Positions 4,617-37,956 of a DNA stretch of 38,793 bases are shown piece by piece. Source of the stretch: Patescibacteria group bacterium. Its GTDB lineage: Bacteria; Patescibacteriota; Minisyncoccia; UBA6257; 2-01-FULL-56-20. The notes under the pieces were generated by a model. It saw only the letters and a program-made list of their open reading frames with translations. It had not been told where the DNA came from and did no database searches. Within the stretch, counting starts at the first letter, position 1, and each line of letters begins with the position of its first letter. The stretch lies in NCBI GenBank assembly GCA_028865305.1, contig JAGWKM010000008.1, positions 1 to 38,793 on the forward strand, given 5' to 3'. Position numbers and translations under genes: made by a program.

Positions 4617-4697
4617 GCGATTTGAGACAGGGAACAAGAGACAGGGAACAGAGAATTAACGCTATTCTTTCCCTGTTCCTTGTCTCATGTTCCTTGT
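4617..4697. repeat. Heptad-repeat inverted spacer between pilM and pilN
   Basis: One arm contains units GGAACAA, GAGACAG and GGAACAG; the other contains the complementary CCCTGTTCCTTGTCTC word. The arms flank a short AT-rich centre (GAATTAACGCTATTC). The same GGAACAG unit is found inside rpoBC at about 30058-30093. An upstream in-frame ATG for pilN lies inside this array. Confidence 0.8.
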
Positions 4698-4700
4698 TTC

Positions 4701-8709: not shown

Positions 8710-9294
8710 ATGGAGTTTGCACCAAGTAACCAAACTAGCCAAATTCCGTTTTCTATGTTAGACGGTGAGGAAAAATTAATCCATGATGCCGTCAAGGGCG
8801 ATTCCTCGGCTTTCGGCCTCCTTTACGATCACTATCAGCCCATGATCTACCGCTTTGTGGCGGTGAAGGTTGGCCGGCGTGAGGAAGCCGAGGATATCAC
8901 CCACCAGGTCTTTCTCTCGGCCTGGCAGAACATCCGGCGCTATGAGCACCGCGGGCATCCATTTTCAAGCTGGCTTTATCGCATCGCGCGGAACCGGATC
9001 ATTGACCATTACCGCTCGTCGCATGAGAATGTCAGCCTGGAGGGGCTCGCCGTCGAAGAGATCGTCGTTGCACCCCAAAACGCCGCTTCCGATATCTCGG
9101 CCCAGCTTGAAATGGAACGCGTCCTAAAAGCGCTCCACGAGCTGAAGCCGGAATACCAGGACGTCATCATCCTTCGGTTTATCGAAGACCTGTCCATCAA
9201 GGAAACGGCCGCAGCCATGAAAAAAACGGAAGGCGCCGTGAAGCTGATGCAGCATAGGGCGATGGCGGAACTGAGAAAGATTTTGGAAGAATGA
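8710..9294 (+). CDS. ECF-type RNA polymerase sigma factor
   Basis: A 194-residue sigma-70 family protein with only regions 2 and 4. Region 2 is seen at about 34-110 (FGLLYDHYQPMIYRF, EDITHQVFLSAWQNI, SWLYRIARNRIIDHYR) and region 4 at about 135-190 (LPEY-like KPEYQDVIILRFIEDLSIKETA, then a helix-turn-helix TEGAVKLMQHRAMAELRK). It would direct polymerase to a small stress or envelope regulon. The next gene is a one-pass membrane protein with a short cytoplasmic head, the usual arrangement for a membrane anti-sigma. ATG at 8710 or 8755 could be the start; the conserved part begins after both. Confidence 0.92.
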   Translation: MEFAPSNQTSQIPFSMLDGEEKLIHDAVKGDSSAFGLLYDHYQPMIYRFVAVKVGRREEAEDITHQVFLSAWQNIRRYEHRGHPFSSWLYRIARNRIIDHYRSSHENVSLEGLAVEEIVVAPQNAASDISAQLEMERVLKALHELKPEYQDVIILRFIEDLSIKETAAAMKKTEGAVKLMQHRAMAELRKILEE

Positions 9295-9420
9295 CGAAAT
9301 GACGCAACGACTAATGACGCAACGAATGACCAAATGACCAAATAAACTTATTATATCATTCCATCATTAAATCATTCGTTACGTTATTGCGTCGCTACAT
9401 CATTGCGTCATTCAAAGAAC
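9290..9420. repeat. Inverted array of AATGACG-type units
   Basis: The left half carries repeated AATGACG, AATGACC and GCAACGA words and the right half their complements (CATTGCGTCATTC, CATTCGTTACG). The arms begin at the sigma gene stop and end at the next start, so the whole spacer is the repeat. Unit length is seven to eight bases. It resembles 17100-17188 and 26385-26510. Confidence 0.8.
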
Positions 9421-10800: not shown

Positions 10801-10910
10801 GGAACGGGGAATAAGAGACAAGAAACAGGGATGGATCAAACCAAAAATTCCGCAACATATTGCGGAATTTTTGAGGAACTCCTTGTTCCCCGTCGTTTGC
10901 TCCCTATCCC
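10801..10910. repeat. Heptad-repeat arms around a terminator
   Basis: Units GGAACGG, GGAATAA, GAGACAA and GAAACAG on the left face CTTGTTCC and TTGCTCCCTATCCC on the right. A perfect terminator hairpin (10843-10872) sits at the centre, so here the array and the terminator form one large foldback. Confidence 0.7.
10843..10872. terminator. Bidirectional terminator
   Basis: Perfect 13-bp stem AAAAATTCCGCAA / TTGCGGAATTTTT with a CATA loop, between two convergent genes (secreted protein and HU). It has A-runs on the left and T-runs on the right and can end transcripts from both sides. Confidence 0.92.
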
Positions 10911-16092: not shown

Positions 16093-16106
16093 GCATTGGC
16101 AATAAA

Positions 16107-16183
16107 GAATGAGGTATAAGGTATAAAGTATAAAGTATAAGGTATAAAGTATAAAGAATGAGGAATAAAGAATGAGGAATAAA
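16107..16183. repeat. Direct array of eleven heptanucleotide units
   Basis: Eleven adjacent seven-base units with no gaps: GAATGAG, GTATAAG, GTATAAA, GTATAAA, GTATAAG, GTATAAA, GTATAAA, GAATGAG, GAATAAA, GAATGAG, GAATAAA. This is the clearest example of the heptad family in the window. Unlike most others it is a direct array with no facing arm. It lies between recO and the disrupted four-helix-bundle gene. Confidence 0.97.
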
Positions 16184-16265
16184 ATGAAAAATAGGGAATT
16201 TAGATATATTAAAAAATAATTAAATAAAATTTGCTATTTATAGTTTGATCGACTATGGATGAAGT

Positions 16266-16760
16266 ATGGATAAAAAAATCGAAAAATTCACTGACTTATA
16301 CGCATGGCGGGTATCACACAAACTTGCCTTATATACTTATCGCACTGCAAAAAATTCCCCAGGGAAGAATCGCTTAGCTTAACAAATCAAATGAAGATAC
16401 CCCGCCCTCACGGACGGGGTATCTTCTCCCTCTTCGCCGCCCCGGAGGGGCGGCGTCCCACCGGCCACAGCGCCGGCGGGACCAAACTTCATCCGCACCC
16501 TTATGGGTGCGGTTTTAAGTTTGGAGAGTGATAAAAAGAGCCGCGGCTTCCGTAACTTCTAACATTGCTGAAGGTTTTTCAAAAAGAAGCAACCGCTAGA
16601 AAATGCAGTTTTATTATTCGGCAAAGGTTCGCTAAACGAACTTAAGAATCAGTCTGTTGTGGCTCATGATGTCCGCTATGTGGACAAAGGCGCCCTCGAA
16701 TAAACGCTGGGATTGGCCGATCATTCGGATAAGATCTTGCAAGGATTGCTTATTCATTAT
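16266..16760 (+). pseudogene. Disrupted four-helix-bundle protein (S23/IVP type)
   Basis: The start MDKKIEKFTDLYAWRVSHKL and later pieces LTNQM, AAASVTSNIAEGF and KMQFYYSAKGSLNEL match the small four-helix-bundle family (TIGR02436-like) often linked to rRNA intervening sequences and abundant in Patescibacteria. The gene is broken in several ways: a frame change at a run of A near 16350, the 150-bp structured element inserted between the Met and the Arg-Ala-Ala codons, an in-frame TAG after SKRSNR and a further stop after DKGALE. It cannot make a normal product. Confidence 0.85.
16390..16540 (+). mobile_element. Structured four-hairpin element, copy 1
   Basis: A block of 151 bases that matches 36010-36160 at all but three positions. 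It contains four hairpins in series: one headed by GAAGATACCCCG, one with stem CGCCGCCCC/GGGGCGGCG, one with CCGGC/GCCGG, and a nested one with outer CCAAACTT/AAGTTTGG and inner CCGCACCC/GGGTGCGG. It interrupts the four-helix-bundle gene. The open frame through it (starting MKIPRPHGRG) looks like an accident of the hairpins. No transposase is encoded, so it would move, if at all, with help in trans. Confidence 0.75.
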
Positions 16761-16788
16761 TCTTCCTTCCGCGACCAAAAAAATCCGC

Positions 16789-17099: not shown

Positions 17100-17188
17100 A
17101 AATGACCAATGACAAATGACGCAATGAGTTTGCTGGCATCGGTCCATTCAGTCATTCGTTGCGTCATTAGTCATTTCGTCATTTTCCC
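17100..17188. repeat. Inverted array of AATGAC-type units
   Basis: Left side AATGACC, AATGACA, AATGACG faces right side CGTTGCGTCATTAGTCATTT. The same words occur at 9290-9420 and 26385-26510. It fills the spacer between rpmE and tRNA-Ala. Confidence 0.75.
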
Positions 17189-19451: not shown

Positions 19452-20273
19452 TTACCGGTAGTACGCCCGGTTCGCCACCCTGAAATCCACGTACTGCAAT
19501 TTATCGAATCCCGGTTTTGCCATCAATCCTTGGAGGACAGGCAAATATTCATCCGCCGGAAAACGCAGGCTGAAATAAACTTCGGGGCCGTTTTGGGTCG
19601 AAACGTCGATCTCTTGCAGGCTAAGGTCTTTGAGCGCAATCTCCTTGGCCTGCAATCCGCTTATTTTCACTACGTCCATAATGGTAAGCATGTTGGCGAC
19701 GAACGCATTCGGCAAAATTTTCTCGCCAAGGCCAAGATAGGTTTGCGAATAGTCATGGACCGCCAGGAACGCGCCGCCCTGGGTATCGAGCGCCTTCTGA
19801 AAAACGGTACCGCTCGCATCGAACCAATAGCAGGTTTCGCCGCTACCCGAAGAAGTTGATTGCATCAGGCACCACGTGCCGATCGCCTGGCGCTCGACGG
19901 CGGCCAGCGTTATGGTCCGGGTAAAATAATTTTTCGAAACCGAAAGATCGGCAAGCTGGGGCAGCATGGCGGTTTCGCTCGCCGGCAATCGGCCGCTCGG
20001 CCAAATAAGGATATCATCCATGCCGAGGAGCGATTTCCAAAAGTCGTGATTTTTCAAAATATCCGATTTAACCAAATCTTCGATATCACGAGCCGCCACG
20101 GCGCGATTGCCGCGCACCGTAACGCCGCGGATATGCCAGAACGGAGAACGGAAAACAAACCAGAGGATGACGACCGCGGCGAGAACAATCGAGATGCCTA
20201 CCGTGAGCAGCCAAAGTTTTACCCTTCGTTCTTTACGTTTGTGATGTTTTTCGGAAAGCAGATCTTCTAACAT
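19452..20273 (-). CDS. ftsQ: FtsQ/DivIB-like cell division protein
   Basis: Bitopic membrane protein linking early and late division proteins. The 273 residues have a basic cytoplasmic head (KHHKRKERR), a membrane segment at about 20-41 and a POTRA domain beginning FWHIRGVTVRGNRAVAARDIEDLV. Length and topology fit FtsQ. It follows serS on the same strand across an inverted-repeat spacer. No other division genes are in the window. Confidence 0.8.
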   Translation of the reverse strand: MLEDLLSEKHHKRKERRVKLWLLTVGISIVLAAVVILWFVFRSPFWHIRGVTVRGNRAVAARDIEDLVKSDILKNHDFWKSLLGMDDILIWPSGRLPASETAMLPQLADLSVSKNYFTRTITLAAVERQAIGTWCLMQSTSSGSGETCYWFDASGTVFQKALDTQGGAFLAVHDYSQTYLGLGEKILPNAFVANMLTIMDVVKISGLQAKEIALKDLSLQEIDVSTQNGPEVYFSLRFPADEYLPVLQGLMAKPGFDKLQYVDFRVANRAYYR

Positions 20274-20274
20274 A

Positions 20275-20357
20275 ATATCTAATTAATAACGGACGATTGA
20301 TGTCTTCATATTCAACGCACATTTATCTCATTACGATATTCGTTATTAATTAGATAT
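20275..20357. repeat. Inverted repeat between serS and ftsQ
   Basis: Perfect 17-bp arms, 20275-20291 and 20341-20357 (ATATCTAATTAATAACG and its complement), around a 49-base centre. It shares its CTAATTAATAACG arm with the repeat at bases 4-103. Confidence 0.9.
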
Positions 20358-20364
20358 TAGATAT

Positions 20365-21675
20365 TTATCCAATCACCTCCTTCCCCACGTACTTCACGAG
20401 CACTTTCGGCACCTCCACCTTCCCGTCCTCGCGCTGGTAGTTCTCCAGGATCGCAATGAAAATGCGGGGGCTCGGCAGCGCCGTGTTGTTCAAAAGATAA
20501 GCGAATTTTTTCTCACCGTTCGCGTCAACGTATTTCACGTTCAGCCGCCGCGCCTGCCAATCCAAAAAGTTGCTCGCCGAACCGGTTTCCGCCCAGCGCT
20601 GCATGCCCGGCAGCCAGGCCTCGAGATCGAACGCGCGGTATTTGCCGGCGCTCATGTCCCCCGTCGCAATCTGCAGGCGCCGATACGGCAGACCAAGCTC
20701 CTCGTGCATCTCGCCGGAAATGCCCGTCATCTCGTCCTGAATCTTGTTCGCCTTTTCAATATCCGCTTCCGCGACGACCACCTGCTCCACTTTCATAAAC
20801 TCGTGCACGCGGTACAGCCCTTTCACGTCTTTGCCGTAGCTGCCGATCTCGCTCCGATAGCATTGGCTGTAGCCGCAAACCCTGATGGGCAATTCCTCTT
20901 GCTTCACCGTTTCGTCCGAAAAATATGCCAAGAGCGACGGCTCAGCCGTGCCAACCAGGAATTTTTGTTCGTGCGACGGTTCGCCGGTCGACTCCTTGTC
21001 CCGCGTCGCAATCTGATAGATCTCGTCGACCTCCGGATTGTACTCCGACCCTTTGAAGTAGCCGCTGCCAAAGAGCGCGAAACCTTTCACGAGCGTCGGC
21101 GGGATCATCGGCCGATAGCCCTTCTCCACCATCTTGTGGAGCGCGTACAGCATGATACCCATCGCAAGGAGCACGCCGTCGTTCTTGATGTAATAACCGC
21201 GGAAACCGCCGACCTTCGTACCTTTTTCAAAATCCAGAATGTCGAGCGCGCGGCCGAGCTCAATATGGTCTTTCGGTTTAAAGGCAAAAGTCTTCGGTTC
21301 GCCCCAGTGGAATATTTCCTTGTTATTTTCTTCGCCGCCGATCGGGGAATCCGGCGACGGGATTGTCGGCGCCAAAACCATCAGCTCATTGAACTGCCGC
21401 TCGGCCTCCGCAAGCTCCGGTTCCAGCTTTGTGATCTCCCCTTTTATTCCTTTTCCTTTCTTTAATATCTCCTCCCGCTCTCCCTTGTCCTCGGCGCGCG
21501 TCACCTCGTCGTTCAATTTGTTCCGCTGCTCCCGGAGCTCCTCGATCTTCTTGATCAGTTCCCGCCGCGCCTCATCGGCCGCCAAAAGCGCGTCAAGGTC
21601 CAGATTGATATGCTTGTTTTTTGCGGCTATCTTCAGTTCGTCCGCATGTTCCCGGATAAATTTGATGTCGAGCAT
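20365..21675 (-). CDS. serS: Seryl-tRNA synthetase
   Basis: Charges tRNA-Ser with serine. The 436 residues comprise an N-terminal antiparallel coiled coil (about 25-100) that grips the long variable arm, then the class II core with motif 2 CYRSEIGSYGKDVKGLYRVHEF, the serine-site FLVGTAEPSLLAYF and motif 3 region ETGSASNFLDWQARR ... LNNTALPSPR. I start at 21675 (MLDIKFIREHADELK) because homologues begin there and a TATTAT box lies six bases upstream. A 12-residue upstream extension is possible but unsupported. Confidence 0.97.
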   Translation of the reverse strand: MLDIKFIREHADELKIAAKNKHINLDLDALLAADEARRELIKKIEELREQRNKLNDEVTRAEDKGEREEILKKGKGIKGEITKLEPELAEAERQFNELMVLAPTIPSPDSPIGGEENNKEIFHWGEPKTFAFKPKDHIELGRALDILDFEKGTKVGGFRGYYIKNDGVLLAMGIMLYALHKMVEKGYRPMIPPTLVKGFALFGSGYFKGSEYNPEVDEIYQIATRDKESTGEPSHEQKFLVGTAEPSLLAYFSDETVKQEELPIRVCGYSQCYRSEIGSYGKDVKGLYRVHEFMKVEQVVVAEADIEKANKIQDEMTGISGEMHEELGLPYRRLQIATGDMSAGKYRAFDLEAWLPGMQRWAETGSASNFLDWQARRLNVKYVDANGEKKFAYLLNNTALPSPRIFIAILENYQREDGKVEVPKVLVKYVGKEVIG

Positions 21676-21718: not shown

Positions 21719-23558
<1,840 letters not shown>

Positions 23559-25792: not shown

Positions 25793-25845
25793 AGTAGAAT
25801 GTATAACGTAGAAAGTAGAAAGGGTAATCCACTCTACATTCTACA
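25793..25845. repeat. Heptad-repeat inverted array between ssb and rplK
   Basis: Adjacent units GTAGAAT, GTATAAC, GTAGAAA, GTAGAAA (25794-25821) face CTCTACATTCTAC. It lies inside an operon. Confidence 0.85.
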
Positions 25846-25848
25846 ATT

Positions 25849-26361
25849 TTAAAACGGTATCTCTTCCGGCTTTATCTCGCCCTCTTCTTCCAAATTGATA
25901 GTCGGGATCTCCTCAAGTGGTGGAAGCCCTTGTGGTGCGCTCGCGGTTGGAGCTGGCTGGTTTGCCGCCGGAGCATTCATCCTTGTTCCCTGCTCCTTGC
26001 TCCATGTCCCCTGTCCCATACCACCCGTTCCCGCTGGCCTTGGCCCGAGCTGCATCCGCTCGCACATGACCTCGGTCGTCCGGCGCTGCTGGCCCTGTTT
26101 ATCAGTCCAGCTCCGCGTCTGCAGGCGCCCTTCGATCAGGACCGTCGCGCCCTTCGTGAGGAACTGTCCGGCAATTTCCGCCGTACGGCCCCATATCACG
26201 ACATTGTGGAATTCGGTCTGCTCCTGGCGCTGGTTGTTCTTGTCCATCCAGGTCCGGTTCGTCGCGACGCCGATCGTCGTTACGGACTGGCCGGTCGGCG
26301 TTGTCCGTAATTGAGGATCGGCAGTGACCCGGCCGACAATGATGACCTTGTTGTAGTCCAT
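25849..26361 (-). CDS. ssb: Single-stranded DNA-binding protein with repeat-coded linker
   Basis: The 170-residue protein has an N-terminal OB fold (residues 1-105; VIIVGRVTADPQLR, TEFHNVVIWGRTAEIAGQFL, GRLQTRSWTDKQGQQRRTTEV), a flexible linker and the acidic tip IKPEEIPF used to bind partner proteins. Residues about 115-127 of the linker (GQGTWSKEQGTRM) are encoded by a heptad array, GGGACAG, GGGACAT, GGAGCAA, GGAGCAG, GGAACAA on the minus strand. The start follows a TATCAT box by six bases, so it may also be transcribed alone. It lies between rpsF and rplK. Confidence 0.96.
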   Translation of the reverse strand: MDYNKVIIVGRVTADPQLRTTPTGQSVTTIGVATNRTWMDKNNQRQEQTEFHNVVIWGRTAEIAGQFLTKGATVLIEGRLQTRSWTDKQGQQRRTTEVMCERMQLGPRPAGTGGMGQGTWSKEQGTRMNAPAANQPAPTASAPQGLPPLEEIPTINLEEEGEIKPEEIPF

Positions 26362-26384
26362 GGTGGTATGATATCAATGATAAA

Positions 26385-26510
26385 TTCCAAATGACAAATG
26401 ACAAACGTATGTCCAATGGAAGAAATGTTAAATATTGGACATTAAGACATTCTTTTCATTCGTTTGTCATTTTCATTCGTTTGTCATTAGACATTTGTCA
26501 TTTGTCATTA
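26385..26510. repeat. Inverted array of AAATGAC-type units
   Basis: Left half AAATGAC, AAATGAC, AAACG and right half with repeated CATTTGTCATTTGTCATT and TTCATTCGTTTGTCATT. It fills the spacer between rpsF and ssb and runs up to the rpsF stop codon. Confidence 0.85.
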
Positions 26511-26950: not shown

Positions 26951-27015
26951 GTAGATGGAGAATGGAGAATGGAGAATGGAACTTTTACCATTCTTCCTTC
27001 TCCGTCCTCTATACT
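26951..27015. repeat. GGAGAAT heptad array upstream of rpsF
   Basis: Three exact adjacent units GGAGAAT (26957-26977) face CCATTCTTCCTTCTCCGTCC. It lies within the rpsF leader if the promoter at 27029-27057 is used. The same unit is found inside thrS and mltG. Confidence 0.9.
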
Positions 27016-28208: not shown

Positions 28209-35012
<6,804 letters not shown>

Positions 35013-35815: not shown

Positions 35816-36300
35816 ATGTTTATCGCCATTGCGCAAGTTGCCGGAGGTAAAGAAATACTCCTTTGTCGTTTCGACCTGCCGACCAGCCGGAAATGTTTGA
35901 AGGAATTGAAACGGATGCTTTCCAAACAGAAAATGGAAACTGAATTTTGGAATGGCCGGAGGATACATCCTTCGGGCAAAATGCTGATCTGGCGGCATGC
36001 TAAATTCTCAATGAAGATACCCCGCCCTCACGGGCGGGGTATCTTCTCCCTCTTCGCCGCCCCGGAGGGGCGGCGTCCCACCGGCCAAAGCGCCGGCGGG
36101 ACCAAACTTCATCCGCACCCTTATGGGTGCGGTTTTAAGTTTGGAGAGTGATAAACAGAGTCTCAAAAGAAAAAGCCTTAGTGGCGCCGAAAAGTCTGCG
36201 TAAATCGCTCAAACAAGTCCGCGCCGACCAAAAATTGGAAGATGAGTTCGATGAGATGCTCTTTCTCGATTCATTGAGATATCGAATGCGCTCATTCTGA
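35816..36300 (+). pseudogene. Gene interrupted by the structured element
   Basis: A good ribosome binding site (GCGGAGG) precedes ATG 35816. The frame runs for 66 codons (MFIAIAQVAGGKEILLCRFD ... RHAKFSM) into element copy 2. After the element a coding-like frame resumes (RVSKEKALVAPKSLRKSLKQ ... SLRYRMRSF) to TGA 36300, then a terminator. Removing 140 bases (36015-36154) would join the two parts into one frame of about 114 residues. No homologue is recognised. As it stands the frame ends inside the element. Confidence 0.55.
36010..36160 (+). mobile_element. Structured four-hairpin element, copy 2
   Basis: Matches 16390-16540 except at 36034 (G for A), 36088 (A for C) and 36156 (C for A). 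Stems here are 36013-36027 with 36032-36046 (15 bp, perfect), 36055-36063 with 36067-36075 (9 bp, perfect), an imperfect one at 36078-36100, and 36102-36109 with 36137-36144 enclosing 36113-36120 with 36125-36132. The first stem is longer than in copy 1, so copy 2 may be closer to the intact form. Confidence 0.75.
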
Positions 36301-36998: not shown

Positions 36999-37956
36999 AT
37001 TTCAAGTACAACGCGATGTTCTTATTCTGCTCGGCTAACGTTCTCGCGTAAATCGTCTTGCCGGTTTTGGGATCGCTCAAATAATACCAATACGGCGAAT
37101 TTTGCGGATGGAGGGCGGCCTGAATTACCTGGAGGCCGGGATTGCCGATGGGAGTCGGCGGCAGGCCTTTGTGATGGTAGGTGTCATACGGGCTGCTGGT
37201 TGCCGGCCGCTCACTACCAGATACTAAATTTCCATACTTGACCGTCGCATCCACGTCGAGGTACATGCCGGCGGCGAGCCGCTTTTCCAGGATGCCGGCG
37301 ACGATTGCCTGGTCGGCGGGCGTCTGCACTTCCTTTTCCAAAATAGAGGCGAGAATCAATGTCTGCTCGGCAGTCGAAGTAGTATCGCCCAAAACCGGCG
37401 CGGCTTTTGCCCGAAAATTATCCAAAAATTTTTGCACCACATCCTGAATGCCCGATCCGGGAGCGAATTGATAGGTGTCAGGGAAGAGATGGCCTTCAAG
37501 CGTACCCCATTCTCCATCCTCCATCCTCCATTCTCCATTCTTATCATACGCCACCAGCTCCCCCGGCTTTATCACGAGCGCGTTTGCCAATGCCGCATCG
37601 ATCTCATAGATATTTTTTCCCTCCGGAATCGTAACCGTGATCGGCTGCCCGCCGCTGCTCGCCAGTTGGCTTAAAATCGCAAACGACGACATCGCCGGAT
37701 CCAGCCGGTACAATCCCGCTTTGAGGTGGAATGCTTCGCCGCTTGCGACCGACGCGACCTCGAACGCCAAAGAGGATCGGATCAGGTTCGCCGCCGCAAG
37801 ACCATGCACGATATCCGTAAAACTTTCGCCATGCCGGATCTCAAAAACCACCGGAGCCGGATTCCCCGCATCCGCCGGGCGGAGCGCAAAATAAAAAATA
37901 CAGGCAACAGTGATGGCGGCAACCGCCGCGAGAATGGCCAGTTTGTTCTTCGACAT
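36997..37956 (-). CDS. mltG: MltG-like endolytic murein transglycosylase
   Basis: Cuts nascent glycan strands and so ends their synthesis. The 319-residue protein has an N-terminal membrane anchor (LAILAAVAAITVACIFYF), a LysM-like region (IRHGESFTDIVHGLAAANLI) and the YceG domain with the catalytic Glu in ASILEKEVQ and the later DATVKYG and YHHKGLPPTPIGNPGL motifs. I prefer the start MSKNKL at 37956; ATG 37974 would add six residues. A segment KNGEWRMEDGEWG before TLEGHLFPDTY is encoded by a GGAGAAT/GGAGGAT heptad array. Confidence 0.93.
   Translation of the reverse strand: MSKNKLAILAAVAAITVACIFYFALRPADAGNPAPVVFEIRHGESFTDIVHGLAAANLIRSSLAFEVASVASGEAFHLKAGLYRLDPAMSSFAILSQLASSGGQPITVTIPEGKNIYEIDAALANALVIKPGELVAYDKNGEWRMEDGEWGTLEGHLFPDTYQFAPGSGIQDVVQKFLDNFRAKAAPVLGDTTSTAEQTLILASILEKEVQTPADQAIVAGILEKRLAAGMYLDVDATVKYGNLVSGSERPATSSPYDTYHHKGLPPTPIGNPGLQVIQAALHPQNSPYWYYLSDPKTGKTIYARTLAEQNKNIALYLK
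37507..37541 (-). repeat. Heptad array inside mltG
   Basis: Coding strand units GGAGAAT, GGAGGAT, GGAGGAT, GGAGAAT in a row. They encode an in-frame peptide at about residues 139-150 of MltG, where relatives have a short loop before the conserved LEGxLFPDTY motif. Confidence 0.9.

Follow-up and report, generated by a model that had tools for sequence, protein, structure and literature searches.

Seven-base tandem repeats have been described from several groups of bacteria, and in many bacteria no other long repeat is as common as the heptanucleotide (Mrazek, 2007, as cited in PMC4679880). Rehm et al. (2015, PMC4692102) reported GGGNATC heptamers in Xanthomonas and Nostoc, purine-rich and with one variable base, which lie between aligned ORFs, on the sense strand after stops and on the antisense strand before starts, and which in Xanthomonas form facing pairs (70–75 cases for GGGAATC). 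These heptamers represent one unit, are under-represented in coding regions and have been discussed as G-quadruplexes. The TAACTGA repeats of Beggiatoaceae (MacGregor, 2015, PMC4679880) are likewise built of one unit and occur genome-wide near start codons, as direct repeats with a single inverted case and with few copies in ORFs. The tandem repeats of Borgs also occur genome-wide, in spacers as well as in frame in ORFs, where their units are divisible by three (PMC9879509). A different kind of system is formed by the rRNA intervening sequences with an S23/IVP ORF (e.g., in Coxiella; PMC4990558), in which a PF05635 gene is enclosed by complementary, stem-forming ends. The described ends are not heptad arrays (a 28-bp stem in Coxiella), and these elements are sited in rRNA; they have long been suspected of a mobility in which their ORF would take part (discussed in PMC4990558). 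Avd, which belongs to diversity-generating retroelements, is a relative of PF05635 proteins (PMC10053308).

The heptad arrays of the tiny-genome patescibacterium examined here share features with each of these systems. They resemble the GGGNATC heptamers in the purine-rich unit with a variable base and in their placement between aligned ORFs relative to stops and starts, the TAACTGA repeats in being genome-wide and in standing near start codons, and the Borg repeats in occurring both in spacers and in frame within genes, although here the unit is seven bases and three units make up one 21-base, seven-residue period. However, unlike the GGGNATC heptamers, the arrays comprise many units, mostly lack a G-run, are frequent in frame in genes and are linked to PF05635; the commonest units match neither GGGNATC nor GGGGA(C/T)T. 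Unlike the rRNA intervening sequences, most PF05635 copies lie outside rRNA and many facing arms are gene-less. Heptamers with one variable base, the stop/start placement and facing pairs are already known from Xanthomonas and a single-unit system from Beggiatoaceae; the new result of the present analysis is the link of heptad arms to PF05635 genes. Neither heptad arrays in Patescibacteria nor heptad arms at PF05635 genes came up in the open-access journal literature that was searched.

Materials and Methods

The genome (G000) comprises 1.99 Mb in 388 contigs and is 98% complete with 8% contamination. The window is contig C18 of this genome (38,793 nucleotides). Most large contigs were analysed, of which approximately 750 kb is array-bearing; contigs <3 kb were read as N. 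Genes were called with our own simple hexamer-based ORF caller and start codons are, therefore, approximate. PF05635 was searched for in 121 genomes of the order and was found in 83. For comparison we used the 150-base flanks of 30 PF05635 loci outside this genome, with 134 real ORFs of similar size as control.

Results and Discussion

The array at 16101–16183 and the gene behind it

Eleven in-phase heptads stand at 16101–16180 of the window, forming a purine arm at 16101–16183 (+). The first-pass annotation, made from the sequence, had described eleven exact heptads at 16107–16183; their number and phase hold, but only the length of the unit is exact, as the letters are mixed (AATAAAG, AATGAGG, TATAAGG, and TATAAAG). 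The arm is followed by a leader-like motif, ATTAAAAAATAATTAAATAA (16208–16227, +), and then by a decayed gene of the PF05635 (intervening-sequence protein) family at 16266–16745 (+). Visual inspection shows a motif similar to the leader-like one in several further PF05635 cassettes. The frame of the decayed gene holds stop codons, and a GC-rich palindromic repeat is inserted in it. The PF05635 match spans 16510–16683 with three stops within, and an intact copy aligns by tblastn over 16266–16751 (E = 3.5e-16), across the stops and the inserted repeat. The GC-rich palindrome, GAAGATACCCCGCCC...GGGCGGGGTATCTTC, stands in the window at 16391–16425, within the decayed gene, and at 36013–36046. A candidate right, pyrimidine arm, TTGCTTATTCATTATTCTTCCTTCC, is located at 16746–16770 (+) and pairs weakly with 16156–16179; its inverted-repeat score of 14 is about the 95th percentile of the control. 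The array may be the left arm of one decayed, full PF05635 element with a weak right arm; this reading is part of the stem-loop interpretation developed below, to which we give an even chance.

PF05635 loci in this genome

The PF05635 family ("23S rRNA intervening-sequence protein") has eight matches in the genome and most of these copies are flanked by facing repeat arms. At five of the seven less-decayed copies the inverted flanking arms score 19–31, the 95th percentile of the control being 13. A sixth of these copies (C47:31246), with TTAATTA-type arms, scores 26. The arms differ between loci: GGAACAA at C47:19879, GGAGAAT at C243:43767, TCGGGNN at C253:1442 and ACTGGTA at C328:25134. At C243:40323 the left arm is present and the right arm stands 695 bases downstream. 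As in intervening sequences, the copies have an ORF in the loop (a feature that the gene-less arrays lack) and complementary ends forming a stem.

The copy at C236:20135, with GGTGAGA/TTTCTCA arms, is a textbook intervening sequence within a 16S rRNA gene, standing between the 5′ part of the 16S and GTGGCGAACGAG: the 5′ part ends in GTCGAACGG and is followed by the left arm, and the right arm is followed by GTGGCGAACGAGT. Besides this intervening sequence, which is located close to the 5′ end, the 16S rRNA gene (C236:20065–22200) holds another insert that resembles a group I intron and itself contains TTAATTA/ATTAGAA repeat arms. The C328 element probably lies inside RNase P RNA, judging from a weak Rfam match below the cut-off (E = 2.5e-6). 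The remaining copies are located outside rRNA genes. At C47:19779–20251, the reading frame of a secreted-looking protein runs through the pyrimidine arm of a PF05635 element, and this arm seems to provide the protein with its hydrophobic signal segment (LLSLVPGLLFLVPSYAHA).

PF05635 loci in related genomes

The same arrangement is encountered in relatives. The inverted-repeat score of the flanks averages 21.4 at the 30 PF05635 loci and 9.2 at the 134 small ORFs, and 29 of the 30 loci reach or exceed the control 95th percentile (p = 6e-17); a control of random intervals gave a similar outcome (26/30). Period-7 runs stand on both flanks of 14 of the 30 loci, compared with 2 of the 134 control ORFs. 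Their density is 3.0 per kb in the PF05635 flanks vs. 0.24 per kb elsewhere in the same loci, i.e., 12-fold higher. Some arms have a period of 8–9 bases or are non-periodic; the flank periods recorded are 7 (29), 8 (7), and 9 (2), of which 7 and 8 fit the "seven- to eight-base units" of the first-pass annotation. Since heptad runs bracket PF05635 genes here as well as in related bacteria, they look like the stems of selfish elements rather than the mere product of slippage.

The main alternative is that the arrays are heptanucleotide simple-sequence repeats that arise by slippage anywhere and are filtered by selection, PF05635 elements merely settling in, or sharing, the resulting hairpins. 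The 12-fold concentration at PF05635 flanks in relatives speaks against it. However, among 20 relatives, for which the samples were small, the number of PF05635 genes does not correlate with array density (rho = −0.11), so that a simple link between the two across genomes was rejected, and one relative (G030) possesses arrays and has no PF05635 match. Polarity at the PF05635 loci was 16 R, 4 Y, and 8 neutral (a set that includes four loci of the genome studied here); the other facing pairs in relatives gave 8:5, i.e., a weaker purine-first order than in our genome.

Genome-wide excess of period 7

The first-pass annotation proposed an excess of period 7 in spacers over a shuffled control as a test, and this excess is present across the genome: 560 spacers (186 kb) contain 135 exact period-7 matches of ≥10 bases, compared with 0.2 after dinucleotide shuffling. 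The remaining periods between 2 and 13 each yield 1–9 matches, and periods 14 and 21 echo period 7. With a sliding score, the array-bearing contigs hold 285 period-7 segments vs. 3–26 at other periods; no short period other than 7 shows a large excess. In having head-to-tail seven-base units above chance genome-wide, the arrays resemble heptanucleotide long simple-sequence repeats of the STRR/LSSR kind, which are mainly intergenic. Contigs C7, C20, and C340 are almost array-free and are probably foreign to the bin.

In the window, all other spacers listed in the first-pass annotation carry runs of period 7 (or 7–8). Facing GTATAAN/NTTATAC arms fill the spacer that separates two genes for type II/IV secretion (pilus) ATPases (1252–1323), facing GGAACAN/TTCCYTG arms stand in the spacer of a pilN-like and a pilM gene (4617–4700), facing GTAGAAN arms between the genes of ribosomal protein L11 and SSB (25793–25845), and facing AATGACA/TTTGTCATT arms between those of SSB and ribosomal protein S6 (26376–26509). 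AATGACN arms also face each other next to tRNA genes (17100–17188) and, as AATGACN-type arms with units of 7–8 bases, at 9290–9420. GGAACA-type arms flank a hairpin, AAAATTCCGCAACATATTGCGGAATTTTT, between convergent genes (10801–10910), and at 26951–27015 a GGAGAAT array stands opposite degenerate ATTCTCC units. TTAATTA-type dispersed palindromic elements are present at 1–106 (AATTAAT/AACGAAT heptads) and, adjoining the seryl-tRNA synthetase gene, at 20273–20365. These two are examples of a second dispersed palindromic family (AATATCTAATTAATAATTAATAACGAATGTCC...), which has 109 half-elements genome-wide, mostly in co-directional spacers, and is built on a seven-base rhythm, too.

The commonest unit, CCATTCT/GGAGAAT, occurs at 221 genomic places vs. 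2 for the reversed pattern and was found in none of 37 other genomes of the family. Of 380 genomes in the phylum, 8 have GTATAAN triplets, our genome among them. The burst of heptads is, therefore, lineage-specific and probably recent, but runs of period 7 are conspicuous in sampled sequence of other genomes of the order as well. A BLAST search of the heptads against plasmids, with the low-complexity filter on, gave no match and a sample of cyanobacterial plasmids contained just two arrays in 50 kb.

Palindromes of the REP type, spread by a Y1 (RAYT-type) transposase, were considered as a further source. The genome does contain one Y1 transposase gene (C158:9524–9754; L179:9200–10150), but it is surrounded by several copies of a different palindrome, GAAGACCGTCTTCGAAGACGGTCTTC, rather than by heptads. 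As the palindromes of the transposase itself thus form another repeat family, this origin of the heptads was rejected as highly improbable.

Units, arms, and polarity

The units are not random seeds but are drawn from a limited repertoire, in which some positions are fixed and others vary (GNANRAN); the commonest are GGAGAAT, GTATAAN, GTAGAAN, GGAACAN, and AATGACN. Units differ between sites, as first noted, but they are not unrelated: GGAGAAT is modal in 53 of 219 arms. Between neighbouring units of these 219 arms, differences affect positions 1, 3, and 6 in 5–7% of cases and position 7 in 25%, and variation within the unit is concentrated at fixed positions (chi2 149 vs. at most 18 in a relocation null). 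The arms are strongly purine- or pyrimidine-biased. In facing pairs the purine arm precedes the pyrimidine arm in a ratio of 35:4 (n = 39) and, in a word-based test in which a class was given by two GNANRAN units, of 29:0; the centre of such pairs is often GGG-N(3-4)-CCC.

Facing arms share their unit class more often (0.60) than permuted arms (0.39), a value not reached in any of 20,000 permutations. However, predicted pairing is not weakened when the heptad order is shuffled within arms (mean z 0.08). Exact copying of a palindrome was, therefore, rejected, facing arms match by unit class and not by unit sequence, and the exact stem is not under strong selection.

Slippage would explain other properties of the arms. 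Neighbouring units are more alike than in shuffled unit order (z = −4.0), the differences rise with unit distance from 0.079 to 0.122, and the lengths of period-7 runs fall off steeply with a long tail, in line with the prevalence of heptanucleotides among the long repeats of many bacteria. The local expansion of a seed suggested by the first-pass annotation is, to this extent, borne out. Nevertheless, a seed is insufficient because the same few units recur genome-wide, their variation is position-fixed and facing arms share a class; neither these three features nor the fixed polarity are predicted by slippage. Local duplication in unit order combined with uneven positional variation indicates that slippage acts but that something else sets the unit. 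We consider slippage as the sole origin a serious possibility, which keeps roughly a third of the probability because array density and PF05635 are uncorrelated, G030 has arrays without PF05635, the in-gene arrays (see below) are mostly single arms, and polarity is weaker outside this genome.

The polarity could also point to host regulatory RNA signals, with hairpins serving mRNA stability or S1-dependent initiation. Single arms in co-directional spacers are purine-rich after stops (13:5) and pyrimidine-rich before starts (20:3), as in the placement rules of Xanthomonas (PMC4692102), and genes with an upstream array have no Shine-Dalgarno motif, which is nearly absent upstream of called genes in general (11% vs. 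6% in shuffles). This explanation is improbable, however, since stems by themselves account for the facing order as well, since the same arrays are found inside rRNA and, in frame, within essential genes, and since convergent spacers are not enriched in arrays (9/88 vs. 74/438). Owing to this last result, intrinsic terminators were rejected as well.

Arrays inside genes

The arrays had been placed in spacers by the first-pass annotation. They are not restricted to these, since called coding sequence contains 78 period-7 runs, against 0–11 for other periods below 14, and while arms are denser in spacers, 137 of 402 are inside genes. Segments situated 60 bases or more from the ends of a gene number 100, in 67 of 636 called genes, with open frames. 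The genes include those for ThrRS, a fused RpoB-RpoC, AtpD, enolase, MnmA, and MiaA. On the sense strand, 131 of the 137 in-gene arms have stop-free units, whereas most spacer units have a stop on at least one strand. Because three heptads equal seven codons, peptides such as NGEWRME, SILHSPF, and GTGNREQ recur every seven residues. Most arrays within genes consist of a single arm.

Solved structures, taken for comparison, put the arrays of enolase, MnmA, MiaA, and ATP synthase beta in variable loops, as they do, in the window, for the array in the beta-prime part of the fused RpoB-RpoC (in-frame AACAGGG array, 30060–30091, −). The fusion itself is a single unbroken ORF of 2267 residues with all Rpb2 and Rpb1 domains (28209–35012, −). 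In the threonyl-tRNA synthetase of the window, which is closest to that of Parcubacteria/Doudnabacteria-type Patescibacteria, an in-frame CCATTCT array (22127–22157, +) is part of a loop insertion that is absent or of other form in the closest relatives; in a model that is otherwise confident, this loop (residues 122–144) is predicted to be disordered (pLDDT <50) and has a strand on either side. Two further in-frame arrays of the window occur C-terminal to the SSB domain in the SSB gene (25980–26017, −) and, with GGAGAAT units, in a YceG-family gene (37507–37541, −). A repeat unit that is not divisible by three is thus carried in frame in essential proteins, three units giving a seven-residue period, and this runs counter to the rule reported for other repeat-rich genomes.

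Heptad arms as proposed stems of selfish elements

With equal weight for and against, we propose that the facing heptad arrays are the terminal stems of stem-loop elements akin to intervening sequences, the full form of which carries a PF05635 gene in the loop. A full element would consist of a gene for a four-helix-bundle PF05635 protein (IVP/S23) in the loop between heptad arms, and most copies in this genome would be gene-less, short forms that have multiplied. The stem would make the element tolerable where it lands, i.e., as a hairpin loop in rRNA or another structural RNA, in operon spacers, and in protein loops, where stop-free units would be inserted in frame; replication slippage would afterwards alter arm length and unit order. 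The heptads, their polarity, the class-level matching of arms, the in-frame insertions, and the bracketing of PF05635 genes by repeat arms here and in relatives are observed, whereas we infer that the arms travel with the PF05635 gene, that the gene-less facing arms are derivatives, and the way in which copies would spread, including their mobility and its mechanism. The inverted design correctly noticed by the first-pass annotation, which had left it unexplained, matches the stems at PF05635 genes and is, given the facing pairs of Xanthomonas (PMC4692102), not unprecedented.

Help by a reverse transcriptase (RT) is conceivable because PF05635 proteins are related to Avd and the genome has RT genes as well as an RT-bAvd pair. 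RT and Avd are, together with template/variable repeats, the components of a diversity-generating retroelement. At the locus of this pair (C320:2342–3776) the bAvd gene (−) adjoins the RT gene (+), the frame of which is broken at a GAGAGA run (ERERERERE), and no heptad arms were found around it.

More broadly, and as a doubtful generalization, Patescibacteria may carry selfish PF05635 stem-loop elements with locus-variable facing heptad arrays as ends. Such elements would insert into spacers, structural RNAs, and the loops of proteins, leaving behind copies without the gene, perhaps with the aid of an RT of the Avd-associated kind; it would be the element, and not random slippage, that builds or copies the arms. 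Two old puzzles meet here, i.e., why so many bacteria prefer seven bases as the unit of their long repeats, and which role the intervening-sequence protein family plays and whether its elements are mobile. If the arms are the ends of PF05635 elements, both puzzles would become testable by comparison of close strains.
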